From positions 6,383 through 70,382 of the forward strand of contig JAADHN010000176.1 in the NCBI GenBank assembly GCA_013151865.1: a stretch of 64,000 bases of DNA, in the 5' to 3' direction. This document shows, piece after piece, positions 1 to 10,839 of this stretch. Below the pieces are notes generated by a model, which ran no database searches, was not told the DNA's origin, and was given only the letters and a program-made list of their open reading frames with translations. Position numbers and translations under genes: made by a program. Position 1 is the stretch's first letter, and the number at the start of each line of letters is the position of its first letter. Origin of the DNA: Kiritimatiellota bacterium (GTDB lineage: Bacteria; Verrucomicrobiota; Lentisphaeria; Oligosphaerales; JAADHN01).

Positions 1-89
1 CGTCATCTTCTGTAAAGTAGTCGCCCACACTGGCGGTGACTGTGACAAAAAAAAGAGGGCATTCTGCTTTACAGCGTTACCGAGTTCTG
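1..89 (+). repeat. MITE-like dispersed element, copy 1 (cut by window edge)
   Basis: This is the right-hand part of the element seen complete at 1533-1738 and 10411-10615. It keeps the internal pair CTGTAAAG (10-17) and CTTTACAG (67-74), which is a perfect inverted repeat in this copy, and ends with the terminal sequence GAGTTCTG at 82-89. The next six bases, GAGCAC (90-95), should be the target-site duplication, so the same six bases are expected just left of the element outside the window. Confidence 0.75.
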
Positions 90-280
90 GAGCACGGTCA
101 AGGGCGATGCATTGACAACGAGCTGTTCAGTCGGCATCGTTCAGCTCCTGGCTCAGCTCTTTGTGTGTATACTGGGGCTAACGTCCGGGGCCCGAGCACT
201 GCCGGTTTTGATACAAATCAAGAGAGAATGGCGTCCACCATGTCCCGCCTATAAGCCATCGGGCAGCACAGTCAAACCGG

Positions 281-1052: not shown

Positions 1053-1532
1053 CCTGCTGGAGATGAGGAATCTCTCTTCTGTCACGGGAACGAAGATCGC
1101 GTAGAACGGCTGGCAACGCAATAGTAACGCAATGATTTGGGCGAGATCCGGGGTCTGGCAGGCCTGTATACCCCCGGCGGAAAGGGGCGTGGGGAAATGG
1201 GGGCGGGAAAAAGGGCGAAAGCGACGCGGTAAAACGGTACCGAACGAAGCGAGACGGGCGGCAACGAAGCGGCAATACCCTTGGGGCTTGGGCCGCGGAG
1301 TTCAGAAGGTCGTGAAAAACTCGTCGGTGTCTGCGTACCCAATTCCAGCACCACTTGCTCAGTAACGGTCGCAGCAGGCAGGCCCCGCTGATGCCGGCCG
1401 GTCCCACGGACCGCAATGCCGGAGGATGTGCTCGACGACATCGGGTTGATCGCACTGTTCGATGCGGGCGACCTCCTCCATGCGCACAACTACCGACCAC
1501 CGACACGCGCACGCCGTCACGGATCGGTCAAC
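1053..1532. other. Intergenic stretch, no gene recognised
   Basis: No credible coding region was found. The part from about 1165 to 1270 is purine-rich on the plus strand (many GGGG and GAAA runs). The right end abuts the MITE-like element; its last six bases GTCAAC (1527-1532) are the left copy of that element's target duplication. Confidence 0.5.
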
Positions 1533-1738
1533 CAGAACTCAGTGAATTGAGCTTGGAGGTCTGTAAAGTCGAATACCCTTTCTCGGGCGGACTTCCTGGC
1601 ATGGGCGTGGGAGATTGCTTTACAGTTGCCCGTGAATTCGAGTTCGAAAGCGTGATCTTCTGTAACGCAGTCGCCCACGCCGGCACTGTCGGAGGCAAGA
1701 AAAGAGGGCGATCAGTTTTACAGATTCACTGAGTTCTG
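1533..1738 (+). mobile_element. MITE-like element, copy 2 (complete, 206 bp)
   Basis: A non-coding element bounded by a perfect 15-bp terminal inverted repeat, CAGAACTCAGTGAAT at 1533-1547 and its complement at 1724-1738, and flanked by a 6-bp direct duplication, GTCAAC (1527-1532 and 1739-1744). Inside are two further inverted pairs: CTGTAAAG/CTTTACAG (1561-1568, 1618-1625) and CTGTAACG/TTTTACAG (1660-1667, 1716-1723). A single strand could therefore fold into a closed stem with two side hairpins. It is about 90% identical by eye to the copy at 10411-10615, which lies in the opposite orientation. It encodes no transposase, so any movement would depend on an enzyme supplied from elsewhere. 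Confidence 0.85.
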
Positions 1739-1760
1739 GTCAACACCACCCGGGCCGAAC

Positions 1761-2777
1761 CTACATGACGACGACGACTTTAAACGCCTCGCGCGTTCGA
1801 ATTTTTCGGACGGCCTCCGCAAAGTTCGCCAGGGTTTCAGTGTGGGAGTAGAAGCGCCGCGGATCCAGTTGTCCCGAGCGCACCATGTCCACCACCTCGT
1901 CGTGCACTTCGTGCTCGCCAACCGGCCACTGCAGGACGTGCAACGAGGTGTTGTTGCGAATGTCGCGGATCGTGACACCGGGGTCGGACTGCTTCAAGAC
2001 CCCGAATACGGCTATCTTTCCGCCTGTTTTCAGCATCGGAAAGCCCTGCTTGATAATCGATGACGCCCCGACCGCGTCGACGATCATGTCGAACGAACGA
2101 CCGCCGAGCAACGCCTTGACGTCGTGTGTCTTGCCGTTCACAACACAATCGGCGCCGCCGTCGGTCTTGATCCGTTCGAGCCGATTGTCCCAGTGCCCGA
2201 CGCACCCGAGCCAACCCGCCCCCAGAAGGCGCATCAACCGAATCAATGCCAGCCCGATGGGGCCGTCTCCGAAGAGCAACACGTCCATGCCCGGAGTGAA
2301 TCCGAAGTTCTTCAGGGCGCTGTAGGTTTCCTTGAAGGTCAAGAGAATGGCCGCGTCGGCCGGAGAAAGCGGCAGGGACACGCGCCGGGTGCAATGGGCC
2401 CGAAACGCCTTGTCCTCGATGCCCATTTCAGCCATTGCCTCGAAGTCCTGTGCGACTGCGTACTCCACAAAATGACCGCAATCGGGGCGGTATCCGGTCT
2501 CGCCTTCGGTTCGGAATGCGGGGTCCGTAACGAGATCGCCCAGCTTGAAGTTCCGGACACGCGAGCCCACTTCAACAACCTCGCCGACACCTTCGTGACC
2601 GAGAATGAACGGGTAGTGCAACGCATCCCCGACATGACCGTCGATCATCTTCAGGTCCGTGCTGTTGCAAAGCCCGCACGCGGTCACTTTCACCAGGCAT
2701 TCGTACTCGCGGATCACCGGCCGCGGCAACTCGACAAGCTCGATGCTCTCGGGTCCGGTAACAGCTATCGCTTTCAT
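1761..2777 (-). CDS. Zinc-type medium-chain alcohol/sugar dehydrogenase
   Basis: A 338-residue member of the medium-chain dehydrogenase/reductase superfamily, which oxidises or reduces alcohols, polyols or aldehydes with NAD(P). The N-terminal catalytic domain has CGLCNSTD (zinc-ligand Cys) and GHEGVGEV (zinc-ligand His). The nucleotide-binding fold has the glycine motif GDGPIGLA. The lobe that usually carries four Cys for structural zinc has only one, so structural zinc is probably absent. The start MKAIAV at 2777 has AAAGGA upstream; an upstream start would add an unlikely tail. It is the last gene of a minus-strand run behind the glycyl radical enzyme (200-bp gap), so its substrate may be that enzyme's product. 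The substrate is unknown. Confidence 0.85.
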   Translation of the reverse strand: MKAIAVTGPESIELVELPRPVIREYECLVKVTACGLCNSTDLKMIDGHVGDALHYPFILGHEGVGEVVEVGSRVRNFKLGDLVTDPAFRTEGETGYRPDCGHFVEYAVAQDFEAMAEMGIEDKAFRAHCTRRVSLPLSPADAAILLTFKETYSALKNFGFTPGMDVLLFGDGPIGLALIRLMRLLGAGWLGCVGHWDNRLERIKTDGGADCVVNGKTHDVKALLGGRSFDMIVDAVGASSIIKQGFPMLKTGGKIAVFGVLKQSDPGVTIRDIRNNTSLHVLQWPVGEHEVHDEVVDMVRSGQLDPRRFYSHTETLANFAEAVRKIRTREAFKVVVVM

Positions 2778-2977
2778 GGAGTCGTTCCTTTCCGAGCTGA
2801 CATACCGCCGAATCATCAATCAAAAGTATATCTCCACGGCGGTGGGTGGGAGACGCCGTCCCCCGTGCCCCCGGCAATTCTCCACCGGCCCCAACTCGGC
2901 GCCGGGAATCAGGCCGCGCTTCGCGCACCCCCAAGCTCACATCGCGACTGTCCCTGAATGCATCGGGGCGTTCCCGG

Positions 2978-5380
2978 TTACTCGGCCGGAGACGGCGCCA
3001 GCGAGGTGCGTGCGATGATCTCGTCCTGGATCGCCCGATCGAGGTTGCAGAAGTACTCGCAGTAGCCCGCGACCCGCACGATGAGGTTCGCGTACTGGTC
3101 CGGGGCGCGCTGGGCGGCTCGAAGCGTCTCCTGGTCCACAAAATTCACCTGGATCTGGAGCCCGCCCTTGCGCATGTACGTTTGCAGCAACGCCGTCAAC
3201 TTCTCCCGGCCGCACTCGCCTTGGATCATTGCCGGGTTGAGCTTGACGTTGAACGCGCAGCCGCCGGTCATTTTCGAAAAGTCGAAACGCGTCACGGAGT
3301 TGATCAGGCTCGTCGGACCGGCGGCGTCCTTGCCCTGCGTCGGCCCGAGCGCGTCGCTGATCGGTTCTCCGCGCCGCCGACCGTTCGCCGTGGCGGCCAC
3401 CCATTCTCCGAAACGGACGTGGTCGTTGTAGCTGAACATGTTGGGCACATACACGCAATGATGCCGACTGCGTGTTTCACGGAGCGTGTCGGCGTACGCG
3501 TTGTAGACCGCGACCGCAATGGCGTCCACCTCGGCCAGATCGTTTCCGAACGCCGGCGTGCGATTGGCCAGGAGACGTCGGACGTCCTCCGCACCCTCGT
3601 AGTTCCGTGCGAGGATCGCCCTGAGTTCGTCCAGGGCCAGTTTCCCACGCTCGAACACAAACGTCTTGATTGCGGAAAGCGCATCGATGGCCGTACCGAT
3701 CCCGCGCGATCCCATCGAGCGGATCAGGGGACACGCGGCCCCGCCCTGTTCCACATCCAGGCCGGACTCGATGCAGCCGTCCACGAGCGCCGAGGCGAAC
3801 GGGTCGAAACGATGACTGATCATGGCCTCATGGTTCGCTTCCGACCGCGCCACGGCATCGCGAACACAGTGACGAATCTGTTGGAGATAGGCCGCGAGGA
3901 ACTGGTCGAATGTCCGAAACGAGGCCAGCTCACCGGTGGCCGGTCCGGTTTCACCCCACATATTCGCGGCGCCGTTCGTAAAGACCAGTTCGAGCAGACT
4001 TGGAAACACGACCTCACGGCCCGTTCCGCTCCAGGTCGGGCTTTTGCCCTGGATCATGATCTCGACGCAACCCATCGGGTAGTAGTCCCGCGCCTGTTCC
4101 CGAAGGTACCCGATACCTACCAGCCCCGGAATCAGGATCTCGTCGTTGAAAAGCTGCGGCTGTCCGCAACCGCTGCATATCGTGTCGGTGACCAATCTCC
4201 AAAGTCGCGCGGGCGTCCGAGCGGTGATGCGCACGCAAGTGTTCGGATACGGCTCGTGAACAGCGGCCGTCACTTCCAGGCAGAGGTAGGTCAGGTCGTT
4301 AACGCCGTCCTCACCGCCGGGCGTCAGACCCCCGAGGCAGACGCTCTGGACGGTGCGCATGTGCGGCTCGTTCACTTTCAGCCAAACGCATTCCAAGAGT
4401 TCCCGGGTCTGCTCGCGGGTGATGCGCCCCTCCTGCAGGTCGCACTCGTAAAACGGAAACAGATACTGGTCGAGGCGCGCAAACGAGAGCGCGCTGCCGC
4501 CGCCGATGTTCCCGATAACGTGGACCAACCACGTCAACTGGAGCGCCGCGCGGAAACCGAGCGGCGGTGCTTCCGCGACCGCCTCCACGATCCGGGCCAT
4601 CTCCCCCAGTTCGGCCCGGCGACGCTCGTCGGGGCACCGTGCCGCGTGCTGGCGTACGGTTGCCGCATAGCGTCGTACGAACGCGATTGCCGCCTGAATG
4701 GCAAGGTAAGACGCCTCGTAGAACCGACGCGTCTCCGGCGGCGCGTTTGCAGCCAGTTTGTCTTTGATCCGGTCGCGGATGCCGCCCAATCCCAGCCGAA
4801 GCGGCTTGGCGTAGTTGAGGTGCAGGTGGTTCGATGCAAACCAGGGCAGCTCCTGCAAACGCCGCCTCACGTCGGCGCCGTAATCGAATTGGAAATGGTC
4901 CTCCAACAAGCGGTAGATCTCCGCAAACGTGACCAGCCCCTCCGCCTCGAACTCGACCGCAAGTCGGCGCGCCGTGTGTTGCAGCTCCTCAAAGGGAATC
5001 GACGCATCGTAGTGGTCGCGCCGGTGCAGCGCCCAACGCGGTGCGAGTCGGCGCCATGCCTCGCGAGGCCGACCGCGACGGGAATCCGCGAACTCCGCAA
5101 CCAACGCGCGCGCCTCGCACAGCCGTTCCTCGGAGGAAGGCAGCCCGCGAGCCGGGGGCCACATGCCCAGAATCGAGCCGACCACCAGCTCGTGCGGCAA
5201 CACAACCTGGTCCACACGGCTCAACAAATGCGCAAAGGCTTTCGCGCGCCGGATTCGGGCCGGCTCTCCGGTCGTTGCCTTGAGCGACTCGTCGATGAGC
5301 CCGTAAAACGTGGTCCGGCGCACGCCCGCTGCGTTCAGGGCGTGAATGTGCGCTCGCAGTCGTTCGGTGCGCTCGTTCAT
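2978..5380 (-). CDS. Glycyl radical enzyme (PFL/diol dehydratase superfamily)
   Basis: An 800-residue oxygen-sensitive glycyl radical enzyme. The thiyl-radical site is PMGCVEIM (Cys438 from this start). Its GCVE form, with the Glu two after the Cys, is that of dehydratases and lyases such as glycerol or propanediol dehydratase, CutC and HypD, rather than the double Cys of pyruvate formate-lyase. The C-terminal glycyl loop is RVAGYCEYF (radical Gly772, 28 residues from the end), followed by QDEIIART. Size and domain order are standard. The start MNERTERL is preferred over an upstream TTG. No radical-SAM activase is seen in the window; one must be supplied in trans. The isomerase upstream and dehydrogenase downstream suggest anaerobic deoxysugar or diol use, but the substrate cannot be read from sequence alone. 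Confidence 0.9.
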   Translation of the reverse strand: MNERTERLRAHIHALNAAGVRRTTFYGLIDESLKATTGEPARIRRAKAFAHLLSRVDQVVLPHELVVGSILGMWPPARGLPSSEERLCEARALVAEFADSRRGRPREAWRRLAPRWALHRRDHYDASIPFEELQHTARRLAVEFEAEGLVTFAEIYRLLEDHFQFDYGADVRRRLQELPWFASNHLHLNYAKPLRLGLGGIRDRIKDKLAANAPPETRRFYEASYLAIQAAIAFVRRYAATVRQHAARCPDERRRAELGEMARIVEAVAEAPPLGFRAALQLTWLVHVIGNIGGGSALSFARLDQYLFPFYECDLQEGRITREQTRELLECVWLKVNEPHMRTVQSVCLGGLTPGGEDGVNDLTYLCLEVTAAVHEPYPNTCVRITARTPARLWRLVTDTICSGCGQPQLFNDEILIPGLVGIGYLREQARDYYPMGCVEIMIQGKSPTWSGTGREVVFPSLLELVFTNGAANMWGETGPATGELASFRTFDQFLAAYLQQIRHCVRDAVARSEANHEAMISHRFDPFASALVDGCIESGLDVEQGGAACPLIRSMGSRGIGTAIDALSAIKTFVFERGKLALDELRAILARNYEGAEDVRRLLANRTPAFGNDLAEVDAIAVAVYNAYADTLRETRSRHHCVYVPNMFSYNDHVRFGEWVAATANGRRRGEPISDALGPTQGKDAAGPTSLINSVTRFDFSKMTGGCAFNVKLNPAMIQGECGREKLTALLQTYMRKGGLQIQVNFVDQETLRAAQRAPDQYANLIVRVAGYCEYFCNLDRAIQDEIIARTSLAPSPAE

Positions 5381-5622
5381 GATGAAAAGCCTTTGCCTCG
5401 ACGCCCCCATTTTCAACGGGTACGGTGCGACCGCTGATTTGATCGAGCCCGCCCTGCACGTTCCGGATCTCCCGGCTTGGCGCTTCTGCGGTAACTGTCA
5501 GGCACGCCTACCGGAGCGACCGCGGAGCACAACGGACCCGATGCGGGCCCGGGGACCCGCTTCCGACTTCGGGCGTCTTTTCCAGGGGGGCCCCAACACG
5601 TGCCGCCTTCAAGGGGCGTAGG

Positions 5623-7146
5623 CTACCGCGAAAACACACTGCAACTCGCCCCCTGTTCCGTCGGCATCGGCGGCAGGTCGGCTTCAATTTGATCGAGGTC
5701 CAGCGGTGCGGCCGCCAAATCGACGACGTCCAGCCCGCGGAAGCGCAGCGCCCGCGTCACCTCACGCCCCACGTGACCGTGCATGGCGACGAAATGATGA
5801 ATGCTTCTGTGTTCCATTGCCTGCATCACCTCGGGTAAGTTCGGGACAAACGCCCAACCGCTCGAACCACGCAGGCCCGGATCGTCCCGCAGGAAATGGC
5901 CGGAAAAGACGGTTGCGTGGAACGCAGCGGCGGAGGTGGCCGCCGCGACGGCCGTGAACGGCGCCGGAGCCATCACTCCCTGGATTTCGCCGTTCGGCGT
6001 CATGCTGACGCCATCGCGCAGCCACGACACGGGCGTCTGCGAGCAGTGGAAGACATTGAATACGCGGGGGTCCCACCCGTTGTTGTTGATGTCCAGAATG
6101 ACTCCGGCCCGGCCCGTCACCGCCCAGGCCAGGCGCGCCATCGCAGCATGACAGATATCAAGTTCACACACCACCGGCTTCCCCAGCAACTCGTTGGCCA
6201 GCATCGAGAACGAGCATGGCCTCACCCCAAAGTACTGCTCGAATTCCGGCCAACAGTGCACTGCGCCGGCGTCGATCCCGTCGCGTTCGAACGTACGTTG
6301 CACCCACGCAAGGCAGCGGGCGGTCATGTCCGGCTTGCGCTCGTCGTCAGGCAGACGGGGCAGGGTCTCGGCGAGTTGCCGCCGGAAATGGGCCACGGCC
6401 GGATCGTTCTTCGTGATCGGTTGCCGCAGTTTCACACAGCCGAAATCCCCCTCGTAGACAGACGCGCCGGATTCCAACCGCGCGCCGAGCACTGTGTCGC
6501 CCCACATGTCCAAGAGTTCATACGGATGCAGCGAGAATCCGAGTTCGAACAACTTCATCTGGTTTGTAAACGTGGTGGCGAACTCGACCGGATTCACCCC
6601 CAGCATCCCGATCCGCATGTTGCGCAGAGACTCGATGCCGTCCGCAATGCGTGCGAACTCCGCAATGACCTCGCGCAGGCATCCTGCGTCGCTCATGTCG
6701 ATACGCGCGCCGGCCGTCAGTTCCCGGCCGAGCATACGCAAATTGTGGACCACCGAGAACGAGCCGCAAAGTGCGTCGCCGAAAACCCCTTGCCTCATGG
6801 CGACCGGATCGTCGTTATTGACCACCAGGAACACCGGCACATCGGGCGGCAGCAGGCGCACCGTGTCCTGCACGGCGCGTTCCCGCATGAAATCCGCACT
6901 GAACACGACCAGCGCCTTGAGGTCGGCCAAGTCCGCGCGCCATGCGTCGAAGTAAGCGCGCACGTCCGAGTCCCCGTTGATCAGCCCTTCGGTGCAGCCG
7001 GAATCGTCCGGGAAGATTGCGTCGATGGCGAGTTCGGCGCAGGCGTTCCGCACTGCGGCCTTTGCGGCCTTGGTCATATCGCGGTTGTAGAACCCCCGGA
7101 TCACCGGCAAGAAGAGGACCTTGTTGCGGTTTGCGGCGATAGCCAT
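5623..7146 (-). CDS. L-fucose/L-arabinose isomerase-like protein
   Basis: A 507-residue cytoplasmic protein resembling the L-fucose isomerase and related proteins (COG2407 type), which interconvert aldoses and ketoses with a divalent metal. The N-terminal part starts KVLFLPVIRGFYNRD and runs through alternating alpha/beta segments; the C-terminal part has CELDICHAAMARLAWAVTGR and a His-rich MHGHVGREV segment. The start MAIAANRN at 7146 is fixed by GAGGGAGA eight bases upstream; longer forms read into non-homologous sequence. It is the first gene of the minus-strand run isomerase, glycyl radical enzyme, dehydrogenase. A 242-bp gap separates it from the next gene, so a shared transcript is likely but not certain. 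It could act on another deoxy or pentose sugar. Confidence 0.7.
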   Translation of the reverse strand: MAIAANRNKVLFLPVIRGFYNRDMTKAAKAAVRNACAELAIDAIFPDDSGCTEGLINGDSDVRAYFDAWRADLADLKALVVFSADFMRERAVQDTVRLLPPDVPVFLVVNNDDPVAMRQGVFGDALCGSFSVVHNLRMLGRELTAGARIDMSDAGCLREVIAEFARIADGIESLRNMRIGMLGVNPVEFATTFTNQMKLFELGFSLHPYELLDMWGDTVLGARLESGASVYEGDFGCVKLRQPITKNDPAVAHFRRQLAETLPRLPDDERKPDMTARCLAWVQRTFERDGIDAGAVHCWPEFEQYFGVRPCSFSMLANELLGKPVVCELDICHAAMARLAWAVTGRAGVILDINNNGWDPRVFNVFHCSQTPVSWLRDGVSMTPNGEIQGVMAPAPFTAVAAATSAAAFHATVFSGHFLRDDPGLRGSSGWAFVPNLPEVMQAMEHRSIHHFVAMHGHVGREVTRALRFRGLDVVDLAAAPLDLDQIEADLPPMPTEQGASCSVFSR

Positions 7147-7693
7147 TGGCGGTCTCCCTCGAATGGTGGGCTTTCCATGGACTCGCGGACTTCGACGACG
7201 GCGGATCGAAGAATCCGGAGCCGGTTCCACCGGTTTGTAAAACTGCGGACCTTCGCGGGCACCGGTATTGTAGGTCGTAGGTCCGGGAACATCCAGTCGC
7301 CGCCCTCAGGCTGGCGTTCCCGGCACGGCAAGCCACAGGGAAGAAGAGGCCTGGGTACGGACAGCACGATTCGACCCCGACTCCGCGGGGAGGCGCGCCA
7401 TTTGGCCTGGACGATCCACAAGCCGGGCAGCACGAGGGGCAACTTGCACAGGTCCAGGGCTCGCGTCAACCGATGGACGAGGCTTTGTGAAACCACCGCC
7501 TCGGTCGGTGAGCGACGGCAATATTTGGAGGCGTGTGAGATGCGTCATCGCAGCAGATGACTGAAGAATCGTTCCGGTACCGTGCTATGGTGGAGCAATC
7601 CGACTCGATCCCGCTCGAAAACGGCGGGCGAACGGGGTACTGTCAAGTTCGGAATGAAAACGCCATGCCGAATGAGTGACAAGGAGAAGAGAA
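7147..7693. other. Divergent intergenic region with one strong inverted repeat
   Basis: This 547-bp gap separates two divergent genes and should hold both promoters, but no good sigma70 pair stands out. The only clear structure is CCGGGAAC at 7283-7290 facing GTTCCCGG at 7316-7323, with an inner CCAG/CTGG pair. It could be an operator or an RNA hairpin. No coding sequence is credible here. Confidence 0.4.
7283..7323. repeat. Inverted repeat, candidate operator or hairpin
   Basis: Perfect 8-bp arms (CCGGGAAC/GTTCCCGG) with a second 4-bp pair inside and a roughly 14-base loop, located between the divergent isomerase and secreted-hydrolase genes. Function is unproven. Confidence 0.4.
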
Positions 7694-10354
7694 ATGGCTC
7701 CGAGACCAAACCGTGCCGTGGCGGCGACAGCCCTGCTGGTCGTTCTTGCGACTCCAGGCGACGCCGCTGCCGGAGACGGGGACGGGCGGTGGGTCCGGGA
7801 CGCCTTGGTCATCGTCTCACCGGGGATGGACGCATTGGGCGGAAAAATCCCCGGCGCGTGGTATCCCCGGGGCCGAGCCGAGATCGCCCTGTCGCAGGCA
7901 CGGGCGTTCGCGGGCCGAACCTCGCTGAAGATTCGGCTCAAGGGCGACTCGGGCGGATGCTCCCGGCTCGTACAGCCGGCGGGCGGGAACTATCGGCTGA
8001 CGTTCTCGTGCCGCGTCTTTGTGCCGAAAGGCCAAACCTTCACACAAATGCCGGCGGTCCATATCTGGCGCAGCCAGGGGACCCTCGTGGCCCGCGGCAA
8101 CCCGGTGAACGAAACCGGGAAATGGGTCGAGACCACGCTCGACATCGAGCGGCCGGCAGGGCAACTCTTCTATGTCGGCGTGTCCGCGGCAGGCAAGAAA
8201 GGCGCACGACCGTTCTTCTACGTGGACCTGTTCGCGTTGAAACGGGACGGGGAGGAATCCCTGCCGCTGGCGAATGCGGATTTCGAGCAGGACACCGGCG
8301 ATAAGCGGGCGCAAATCATCGCCGACTTCGAGCCGGACCTTGTCAATATCTGGTCCGCGGCCAAACTCAACAAAGACGGGCTCTTTCACAAGGCCGGAGC
8401 GCGCATTGCCAGTTGGGGCAAGGTGGAATACGATGCCGCGCTCGACTGGGACAGGCGCCTGGACGAATTTAAGAAAACGGCGGCCGCCCGCGACATCGAC
8501 GGCAAGATCGTCCCGCGCAAAGGCTATCCGCCCTTCATGTACCGCATGTGCCACCATTCTCCGACTTGGCACGAGTACCAGAAGTCCGGCCTGCTTCGGA
8601 TACTCGGCGAAAACGACGCCTTGGGCCAGGACAACCTCTGCAACCCCACCTTCCGCGGCGGCAAGGATCAGTGCTTCTGCCAACACTGCCGGCGCGATTT
8701 TCGAAAGTACCTCCAGAAACGCTTCAACACCGAACAACTCGACCGTATGCTCCCGGGACCGGTCGAGGAGTTCTCCATCGCGGACTACATCAAGCGAATT
8801 CGCCCCACTCACCCCGGATTCAAACTCCTCGACGACCCGGTTGCGCGCGAATTCGTGCGAGCCCAATACATGTACGGCAAGGGCTTCATCGCCGACATCG
8901 CGGCGTCGATCCGCCGAACGGCGGCAAAACAGGGCCGCGTCGTGCCCTTCTTCGGCAACCAGGGCGCAGCCTGGGGGGGCAACCGTTTCCCGGTTTTCAG
9001 CGTCGTCATCTCCGACGTCGTCGACGCCCAGTGCCTGGAGAACTCCCCCATGGAGCCGTACCGGCGCACCCATCGCCACGCGTGGAATGCACTGCAGTAC
9101 AAACTGATGGCCGCCGCCACTCGCTGGGAAAAGCCCGTTTGGCCGCTCATCGATGTGAGTGCGTTCGACAAATTCCCCACGAGCGAAAGGCTGTATCCCG
9201 GCGAGGCGTTGAGCAATGGTGCAGTCCCCATGCTGATCTGGTCGCCTCACACGTGGCCGTCCGAGCGGACCTACAAAGCGCACGCGGAATACGCACGATT
9301 CCTCAACAGCTATCGCGCCCTGTACCTCCAGCGACGTCCCATTGCCAGGGTCGCGCTCGGTTACTCCGTGCCGACCTGTGTCTGGCGCAGTTTCTTCAGC
9401 TACTGGGTCTACTGGCGTGCCGCAAGCAATCACGGCCGCTGGATCGGCACGGTCGCGCGCGTGCTCGAGGATGCCCATATTCCCTATGATCCGATCGTCT
9501 TCGGCCACCCCGATCTGCTCGACGACAAGGCCCAACTCGCCGCCCTCGACAACTACGATGTGCTCGTGCTCACCGAAGTGGACTGCGTGTCCGAGCCGCA
9601 GGCCGCGGCCGTGCGCCGGTTCGCCGAGCGCGGCGGGCGTGTTGTGGTTATCGGTGAATTCGGCACGCGCACCGAGGACTATCTCCCGCGCCGGAAATCG
9701 CTCCTGGACCAGCTTAAAGCCGTTCCCGGCCTGCGCGACCGAGTCGTTTCGCTTCCGGCGTCTTGCGTTCTCGACTTCAAAAACTTGAAAAGCGAATCGG
9801 AAAAGGTCCGGACAGCTTACGCGACGTTGGCTGACGCGATGCGCCCCGAGGCCCGACTCATCCAAACCAATGCGCCCAAGACGCTATGGTTGAACCTGTG
9901 GAAGGACGCGGAACGCCGTCGAATTGCGCTCCACATGGTAAACTACAATGTGGACCTCCAGCGCCACGAGTTTCGGGCGGCGAGGAACGTCGAAGTCAGT
10001 CTCGATGTGCCCGAGGATTTCGCTTTCAACCGAATCCTCCTGCTCGCCCCCGGGACGCCTGCGACGGACTTGGCCTTCAAACACGGGAACAGCGCCGTTT
10101 CTTTCCGAGTGCCGGCAATACGGTGCTACGCGGTCGCGGTCCTCACCACGGACAATGAACTGAATGTGGCCGACCTGATTGCCACCGCTCGGCGGAATCT
10201 CGACCGGGCCCGGGTTGCCGGCCGAAACGACGGAGCTTCCGCGAAAACCGCCCGCGCAGCCCTGGCCGAAGCCGAACGCCTCTATCGTGCACGGCAATAC
10301 GCCGACGCGCAAAAAGCTGCGACAGCGGCCGTACAGGCAAGCGCGAAACCGTAG
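7694..10354 (+). CDS. Secreted glycoside-hydrolase-like protein with beta-galactosidase-type C-terminal fold
   Basis: An 886-residue exported protein. The signal peptide is residues 1 to about 28 (MAPRPNRAVAATALLVVLA then an Ala-rich cleavage region). Residues about 30-210 look like a carbohydrate-binding jelly roll. Residues about 210-560 look like a TIM-barrel hydrolase domain containing a Cys-rich stretch (CNPTFRGGKDQCFCQHCRRD) that may bind metal. Residues about 600-680 resemble the flavodoxin-like trimerisation domain of GH42 galactosidases (DVLVLTEVDCVSEPQAAAV, GGRVVVIGEF). The tail is an Ala/Arg-rich helix. The start at 7694 follows AAGGAGAAGAG. No catalytic Glu pair can be assigned with confidence, so the substrate is unknown. 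It faces the isomerase operon divergently. Confidence 0.6.
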   Translation: MAPRPNRAVAATALLVVLATPGDAAAGDGDGRWVRDALVIVSPGMDALGGKIPGAWYPRGRAEIALSQARAFAGRTSLKIRLKGDSGGCSRLVQPAGGNYRLTFSCRVFVPKGQTFTQMPAVHIWRSQGTLVARGNPVNETGKWVETTLDIERPAGQLFYVGVSAAGKKGARPFFYVDLFALKRDGEESLPLANADFEQDTGDKRAQIIADFEPDLVNIWSAAKLNKDGLFHKAGARIASWGKVEYDAALDWDRRLDEFKKTAAARDIDGKIVPRKGYPPFMYRMCHHSPTWHEYQKSGLLRILGENDALGQDNLCNPTFRGGKDQCFCQHCRRDFRKYLQKRFNTEQLDRMLPGPVEEFSIADYIKRIRPTHPGFKLLDDPVAREFVRAQYMYGKGFIADIAASIRRTAAKQGRVVPFFGNQGAAWGGNRFPVFSVVISDVVDAQCLENSPMEPYRRTHRHAWNALQYKLMAAATRWEKPVWPLIDVSAFDKFPTSERLYPGEALSNGAVPMLIWSPHTWPSERTYKAHAEYARFLNSYRALYLQRRPIARVALGYSVPTCVWRSFFSYWVYWRAASNHGRWIGTVARVLEDAHIPYDPIVFGHPDLLDDKAQLAALDNYDVLVLTEVDCVSEPQAAAVRRFAERGGRVVVIGEFGTRTEDYLPRRKSLLDQLKAVPGLRDRVVSLPASCVLDFKNLKSESEKVRTAYATLADAMRPEARLIQTNAPKTLWLNLWKDAERRRIALHMVNYNVDLQRHEFRAARNVEVSLDVPEDFAFNRILLLAPGTPATDLAFKHGNSAVSFRVPAIRCYAVAVLTTDNELNVADLIATARRNLDRARVAGRNDGASAKTARAALAEAERLYRARQYADAQKAATAAVQASAKP

Positions 10355-10410
10355 GGCTGTCCCCGCCGACGCCCCCTCGCCGTCCGCGATCTTCCAACGG
10401 ACACTGGGAC

Positions 10411-10615
10411 CAGAACTCAGTGAATCCGCAAAACTGAACGCCCTCTTTATTGCCTCCGACAGTGCCGGCGTAAGGGACTGCTTTACAGAAGATGACGCTT
10501 CCGAACTCGAACCCGCGGGCAACTGTAAAGCAATCGCCCACACCCATGCCAGGAAGTCCGCCCGAGAAAGGGAATTCGACTTTACAGACCTCCAAGCCCA
10601 ATCCACTGAGTTCTG
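10411..10615 (-). mobile_element. MITE-like element, copy 3 (complete, 205 bp, inverted)
   Basis: Same element as 1533-1738 in opposite orientation. Terminal inverted repeats are CAGAACTCAGTG at 10411-10422 and its complement at 10604-10615. A different 6-bp direct duplication, TGGGAC, flanks it (10405-10410 and 10616-10621), independent evidence of transposition. The internal CTGTAAAG/CTTTACAG pairs are kept. It lies in the gap between two convergent genes, 56 bp after the stop of the plus-strand hydrolase. Confidence 0.85.
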
Positions 10616-10839
10616 TGGGACAGGAAAGATCCCGACCGAGACAGGAGACGTGAGTCGCACGAGTCGGCGCGCGCCTGCTGCCCGGCTTCGCTGCCGCCCA
10701 TCCGACGGCCAACACCCTCGACCGGAGGTTGTTGCACAACCGGCCCGACCCGACAGGCCATGCGGGCTGCCCCGCGAAACGCGACTGTTCGCCCGAGGGA
10801 ATACTCGCGGTTGCACCGCCCTCTTTCGCCCGGTGCCGA

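Follow-up and report, generated by a model that had tools for sequence, protein, structure and literature searches.

Bacterial MITEs such as MITEAba12, the TIMEs, and the Coxiella MITEs are short, non-coding, multicopy sequences with TIRs, target duplications, and the ends of an autonomous element. The repeat family described here displays the same features. Transposition in some systems also involves sequences outside the element ends. In phage Mu, an enhancer resembling a transposase-binding site lies away from the tips and enhances transposition. The half-DR of Sleeping Beauty is an extra site, similar to a transposase-binding site, off the tips, with an enhancing effect as well (PMC7827188). 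Among bacterial insertion sequences (ISs), members of the IS1634 family have AT-rich duplications of 5-6 bp, a 5'-C tip, a large transposase, and a length of 1.5-2.0 kb (PMC2266710).

Within the window, meaning the whole 64-kb stretch of DNA that was analysed, two complete MITE copies and one element cut off by the window edge were delineated together with their duplications, putative transposase-binding boxes, and core palindromes (Table 1). Comparison with the rest of the genome and with related genomes indicates that these MITEs are very probably non-autonomous deletion derivatives of a 2.5-kb IS with a Tn5-like DDE transposase, by which they would be mobilised in trans. This origin is proposed because the MITEs and the IS share their tips, the box offsets of 29 and 16 bp, the same 6-bp target, and colinearity over three segments.

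Table 1. Features of the MITE copies in the 64-kb window
Feature	Position	Strand	Details
MITE copy 1	1533..1738	+	subfamily A, 206 bp; parent sense on the minus strand
MITE copy 2	10411..10615	+	subfamily A, 205 bp; parent sense on the plus strand
Window-edge MITE	1..89	+	right-hand 89 bp of a 212-bp subfamily-B copy (C147:6260-6471); without matching target duplication
Target duplication GTCAAC, left of copy 1	1527..1532		6 bp
Target duplication GTCAAC, right of copy 1	1739..1744		6 bp
Target duplication TGGGAC, left of copy 2	10405..10410		6 bp
Target duplication TGGGAC, right of copy 2	10616..10621		6 bp
Subterminal transposase box, copy 1	1561..1578	+	29 bp from left tip, as at the right end of the parent
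Subterminal transposase box, copy 1	1706..1723	-	16 bp from right tip, as at the left end of the parent
Subterminal transposase box CCGCAAAACTGAACGCCC, copy 2	10426..10443	+	16 bp from tip
Subterminal transposase box, copy 2	10570..10587	-	29 bp from tip
Core palindrome, copy 1	1604..1681		arms 1604-1625 and 1660-1681, 34 nt between
Core palindrome, copy 2	10467..10544		arms 10467-10488 and 10523-10544, 34 nt between

An earlier note on this DNA had described two complete copies with 15-bp inverted ends and flanking 6-bp repeats, and their coordinates hold. Both repeats are perfect around their copies, and the inverted ends match at all 15 positions in copy 1 (17 bp once flank bases are included) and at 14 of 15 in copy 2. 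Identity between the two copies, judged by eye at about 90%, was measured at 91%. What had been taken for a partial copy at positions 1-89 is a complete element of 212 bp that is cut by the window edge. With up to three mismatches allowed, the end motif occurs five times in the window, whereas 100 shuffles averaged 0.62 occurrences and never exceeded 3.

The expectation of a family with many members is borne out by a search of the whole 6.2-Mb MAG, which returned 33 matches with 72-100% identity, several of them at contig ends. These elements are 204-213 bp long, multicopy, and devoid of a transposase; their lack of coding capacity supports the MITE reading given in the earlier note. Listing of the flanking 6-mers across the genome, a check which that note had proposed, yielded 111 matching positions out of 138 and perfect duplications in 12 of the 23 copies with both ends. 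Random re-pairing of the flanks (20,000 rounds) gave a mean of 61 and a maximum of 87 matches, with at most five perfect pairs. Ends were placed manually in L004, L009, L010, and L011 for this count, and L017 and L020 show flank matches of 5 bp rather than 6 bp. The element at L018 (1501-1707) has, beyond its 6-bp GACCTT duplication, a longer repeat (gaccttcggttaggcat) in both flanks. The target preference is palindromic, approximately GTGCAC, with G at the first position in 16 of 23 flanks and C at the sixth in 19 of 23. Homology among the copies ends at the tips, and hence they are not pieces of a longer common sequence, the finding that would have spoken against the original description. 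Insertions are mostly intergenic, with 2 of 23 inside an ORF predicted by a crude model.

Two subfamilies, A and B, are about 78% identical to each other, with mean identities of 90% within A and 96% within B; the inverted ends are imperfect in B. One copy, L011 (1499-1711), is a chimera whose left part belongs to subfamily A and whose right part is identical to the B consensus, which indicates that MITE copies recombine, either by recombination or by gene conversion. In 12 genomes of relatives, no MITE copies were detected, and the matches obtained there correspond to the ends or the linker of the parent IS. The subfamilies, the palindromic target, the identity of the parent, and the source of the interior inside a transposase gene all go beyond the earlier note.

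Identification of the parent proceeded through a relative from the same order (G001), in which contigs break inside a repeat that ends in a MITE-like tip. From the coding tail of this repeat, an ORF of 777 aa was traced on contig C57 of the genome that contains the window; it is the transposase gene of an IS of about 2.5 kb that is present there in a single copy and has MITE-like ends. This is the full-length transposon with ends of the same kind that the earlier note had recommended looking for. The collapsed IS repeats of G001 comprise 15 left and 8 right ends in two variants, and their flanks share the consensus GTGCAC with those of the MITEs (G1 and C6 each in 22 of 23). A complete relative element, L111, has a tip match of 14/14 and a perfect GAACTC duplication. 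Its first 404 bp, flank included, are identical to G001:C45, so it probably derives from the same population; the Latescibacterota assignment of L111 is doubtful and its contig likely misbinned. The C57 IS, L111, and the G001 copies thus constitute the autonomous partners sharing MITE ends, and the tip common to MITE and IS reads CAGAnCTCAgt. Since the tips of the intact C57 IS differ from those of the MITEs, the MITEs may descend directly from a different copy that has been lost or was not assembled. The 6-mers flanking the C57 element (GAGATC and GCGATC) differ by one base. An ORF that resembles an IS110 transposase by eye (L075, 3527-4234, minus strand) abuts the right end of this element, and an unrelated gene forms its left flank. 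Another small element with similar tips occurs in G001 (L047, 1226-1544) and encloses three tandem units containing GTGCTGGTACGCCG.

Alignment to the parent accounts for the entire length of the MITE. Numbered in the parent's sense, which corresponds to the plus strand of copy 2, MITE positions 1-66 align with the IS left end, 64-154 with DNA encoding the transposase linker, and 144-206 with the IS right end. Each of the three segment alignments beats its shuffle maximum, and jointly they span the whole element. The 206-bp MITE therefore reads as a three-part colinear deletion derivative composed of the left end, a palindrome from the transposase gene, and the right end. The core palindrome, whose homology to the linker-coding DNA of the parent is seen in copy 1, consists of two transposase-box cores in inverted orientation, with 34 nt between them, and encodes a disordered linker in the parent. 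In L112, the same palindrome, GGCGACTGCCTTACAG...CTGTAAAGCAGTCGCC, sits inside an ORF. Being palindromic, the core aligns partly with the linker in either orientation. Alignment scores are nearly equal in both orientations for L112, and for C57 the antisense alignment covers MITE positions 43-196 with a score of 87, compared with 69 in the other orientation. Alignments of linkers with element ends gave mixed results across elements. Core-stem columns of alignment A4 contain 16 G-U versus 3 A-C on the copy-1 strand. This excess over 1604-1681, antisense to the parent transposase, looks as if single-strand folding were favoured.

The transposase belongs to a broader family, with 36 relatives retrieved from MAGs in a collection scan. 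Their hosts include the PVC group, Acidobacteria, Bacteroidetes, Desulfobacterales, and others, along with two archaeal bins that are possibly misbinned. Residues D305, D384, and E494 are invariant in 20 of 20 aligned proteins, with a spacing of D-77/78-D-109..122-E; of the YREK signature, R and E are conserved and Y and K are missing. The predicted fold is confident except for the disordered linker at 156-203, and its best PDB match is the Tn5 transposase (E 3.4e-7). A sequence search of the PDB returned nothing meaningful, NCBIfam produced no match above cut-off, PHROGs gave none, and no relative was found among plasmid and phage records. Transposase_29 (PF21804) is the nearest described family, which the parent reaches weakly and below threshold: against a curated cut-off of 27 bits, the parent (P0001) scores 13.6 bits, L111 25.1, and L078 28.8, the last of which passes. 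Closer relatives of the parent fall mostly under or near this cut-off, and the distant relatives L087 and L089 match at E values of about 1e-149 and 1e-144. Tips resembling CAGAnCTCAnt recur across the elements of this family. Behind them lies a box similar to CTCGCAAGTTnAAATCCC, with offsets of 16/29, about 27/39, or 38/38; the MITE boxes, at 29 and 16 bp, conform to the parent group. At ends as defined here, perfect 6-bp duplications occur among the relatives in L111 and L120 only.

These features suggest how the MITEs may move. Judging from the predicted DDE fold, the transposase of the parent would act in trans on the MITE tips by a cut-and-paste route, in which it would bind the boxes and subsequently pair the ends. 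Cutting would be followed by integration with a 6-bp stagger at a GTGCAC-like palindromic target. The internal inverted box pair may bind the transposase too and aid synapsis or activation, much as transposition enhancers described elsewhere do (PMC7827188). That the MITEs retained the palindrome alongside both ends suggests that it helps jumping. Whether the pair acts as a third cis-acting site, either a transposition enhancer or a synapsis site, is a tentative proposal to which we give a little less than an even chance; such a role would explain why the miniature form kept its core. Extended to the whole family, the idea is that a broad and apparently unnamed group of ISs hides a third transposase-binding site, formed by inverted boxes at a fixed 34-nt spacing, in the DNA that encodes the transposase linker, that this site is needed for efficient transposition, and that its MITEs are reduced to tips plus core. 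This wider version is likewise put forward with reserve, as conceivable and somewhat short of probable.

The equally tentative counterpart accepts the same MITE and the same parent and regards the palindrome as a passenger: the founder deletion kept linker DNA by chance, and its conservation reflects the protein (SVKQSPTPLP) or the mRNA. All copies may descend from one founder, in which case the retained core could be an accident. The linker peptide is indeed partly conserved itself, and the core boxes show no higher conservation among MITE copies than the remaining sequence does. Codon usage, however, points the other way. Across three transposases, 403 residues are conserved, of which 156 have an identical codon in all three. 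When these shared codons are ranked by rarity, TTA174, TCT187, GTA188, and ACA193 take ranks 1, 2, 3, and 5; all four lie within the linker palindrome and are rare in each of the genes, and the 8-codon window with the highest rarity score is the right-hand box of the palindrome. The DNA itself thus appears constrained, given that the three transposases keep rare codons, the most surprising of the gene, exactly at the palindrome, in a linker predicted to be disordered. Recurrence of the inverted pair at the same spacing in otherwise dissimilar linkers also speaks against a passenger. At the 34-nt spacing of the MITE, 9 of 21 elements have the highest-scoring box pair of the gene inside the linker, where 2.7 would be expected. 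A test with this spacing set in advance covered 17 elements outside the clade of the MITE: shuffle p values of the best linker pair are low for L114, L116, L120, L122, L125, and L131 but not for the remaining eleven, with a combined Fisher p of 3.5e-4 when own sites are left out, or 0.002 without L122. About half of the elements have no box pair at 34 nt, so the internal site is not universal, as a passenger would allow. When spacings were scanned more coarsely, 34 nt did not stand out (spacing 15 had a lower p), an ungapped scan for single 18-bp boxes did not favour the linker, and fold z-scores computed for the parental linkers are not outstanding. Because six settings of the pair scan placed the pair in the linker in anywhere from 3 to 9 of 13, reliance is placed on the test with prefixed spacing. 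The box-pair statistics should be taken as support, not proof, of a wider feature.

Two further readings concern the MITE as a whole. It is unlikely that the repeat is a transcribed, structured element (a terminator, an mRNA stabiliser, or a source of small RNA) kept for the host, with transposition only in its past. The strong fold (z -5.6 and -7.2), the mostly intergenic insertions, and the core-stem departures from Watson-Crick pairing (53 G-U versus 3 A-C cells, on one strand) would fit such a role, yet related copies do not provide independent cells, the covariation term contributes little, no Rfam match was found in the window, and the clean duplications and matching parent account for the structure without a host function. 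Less plausible still is that the MITE is older or stems from another transposon, and that the C57 transposase acquired its linker by capturing a fragment of it. The higher antisense score of the C57 alignment would fit such a capture, whereas linkers of relatives are similar in length or longer than that of C57, L111 and L112 carry the palindrome in genomes where no MITE was found, and the MITE ends, too, align with the IS in the parent orientation. Derivation from the IS remains the preferred reading. It ties an anonymous repeat to a family of transposases that occurs in MAGs of several phyla and is hardly picked up by standard annotation. With ends, target, and boxes given, this family can be annotated.

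Compared with known bacterial MITEs, the distinguishing trait is an interior traced to transposase coding DNA with an inverted box pair, of which no description was found in a non-exhaustive literature search. The transposase shares with Transposase_29 the overall layout and a DDE region with RWxQEN, although it scores far under the cut-off of that family. Its predicted fold is closest to that of Tn5 (IS50), and the D-D-E spacing lies inside the IS4-family range, D(60-110)D(100-150)E; unlike in the IS4 family, the duplications are 6 bp rather than about 10 bp (about one helical turn), and R and E alone remain of the full Y(2)R(3)E(6)K signature. With IS1634, the parent IS has in common 5-6 bp duplications, the 5'-C tip, and a large transposase, whereas its target is GTGCAC-like instead of AT-rich and its length is 2.5 kb instead of 1.5-2.0 kb; no IS1634 model appears among the NCBIfam matches listed. 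In contrast to the Sleeping Beauty half-DR and the Mu enhancer, the candidate internal site would sit within the transposase coding sequence. If this site works, the miniature element reveals the minimal cis-acting parts of its parent, and a coding sequence can hold a control site for transposition under double constraint.
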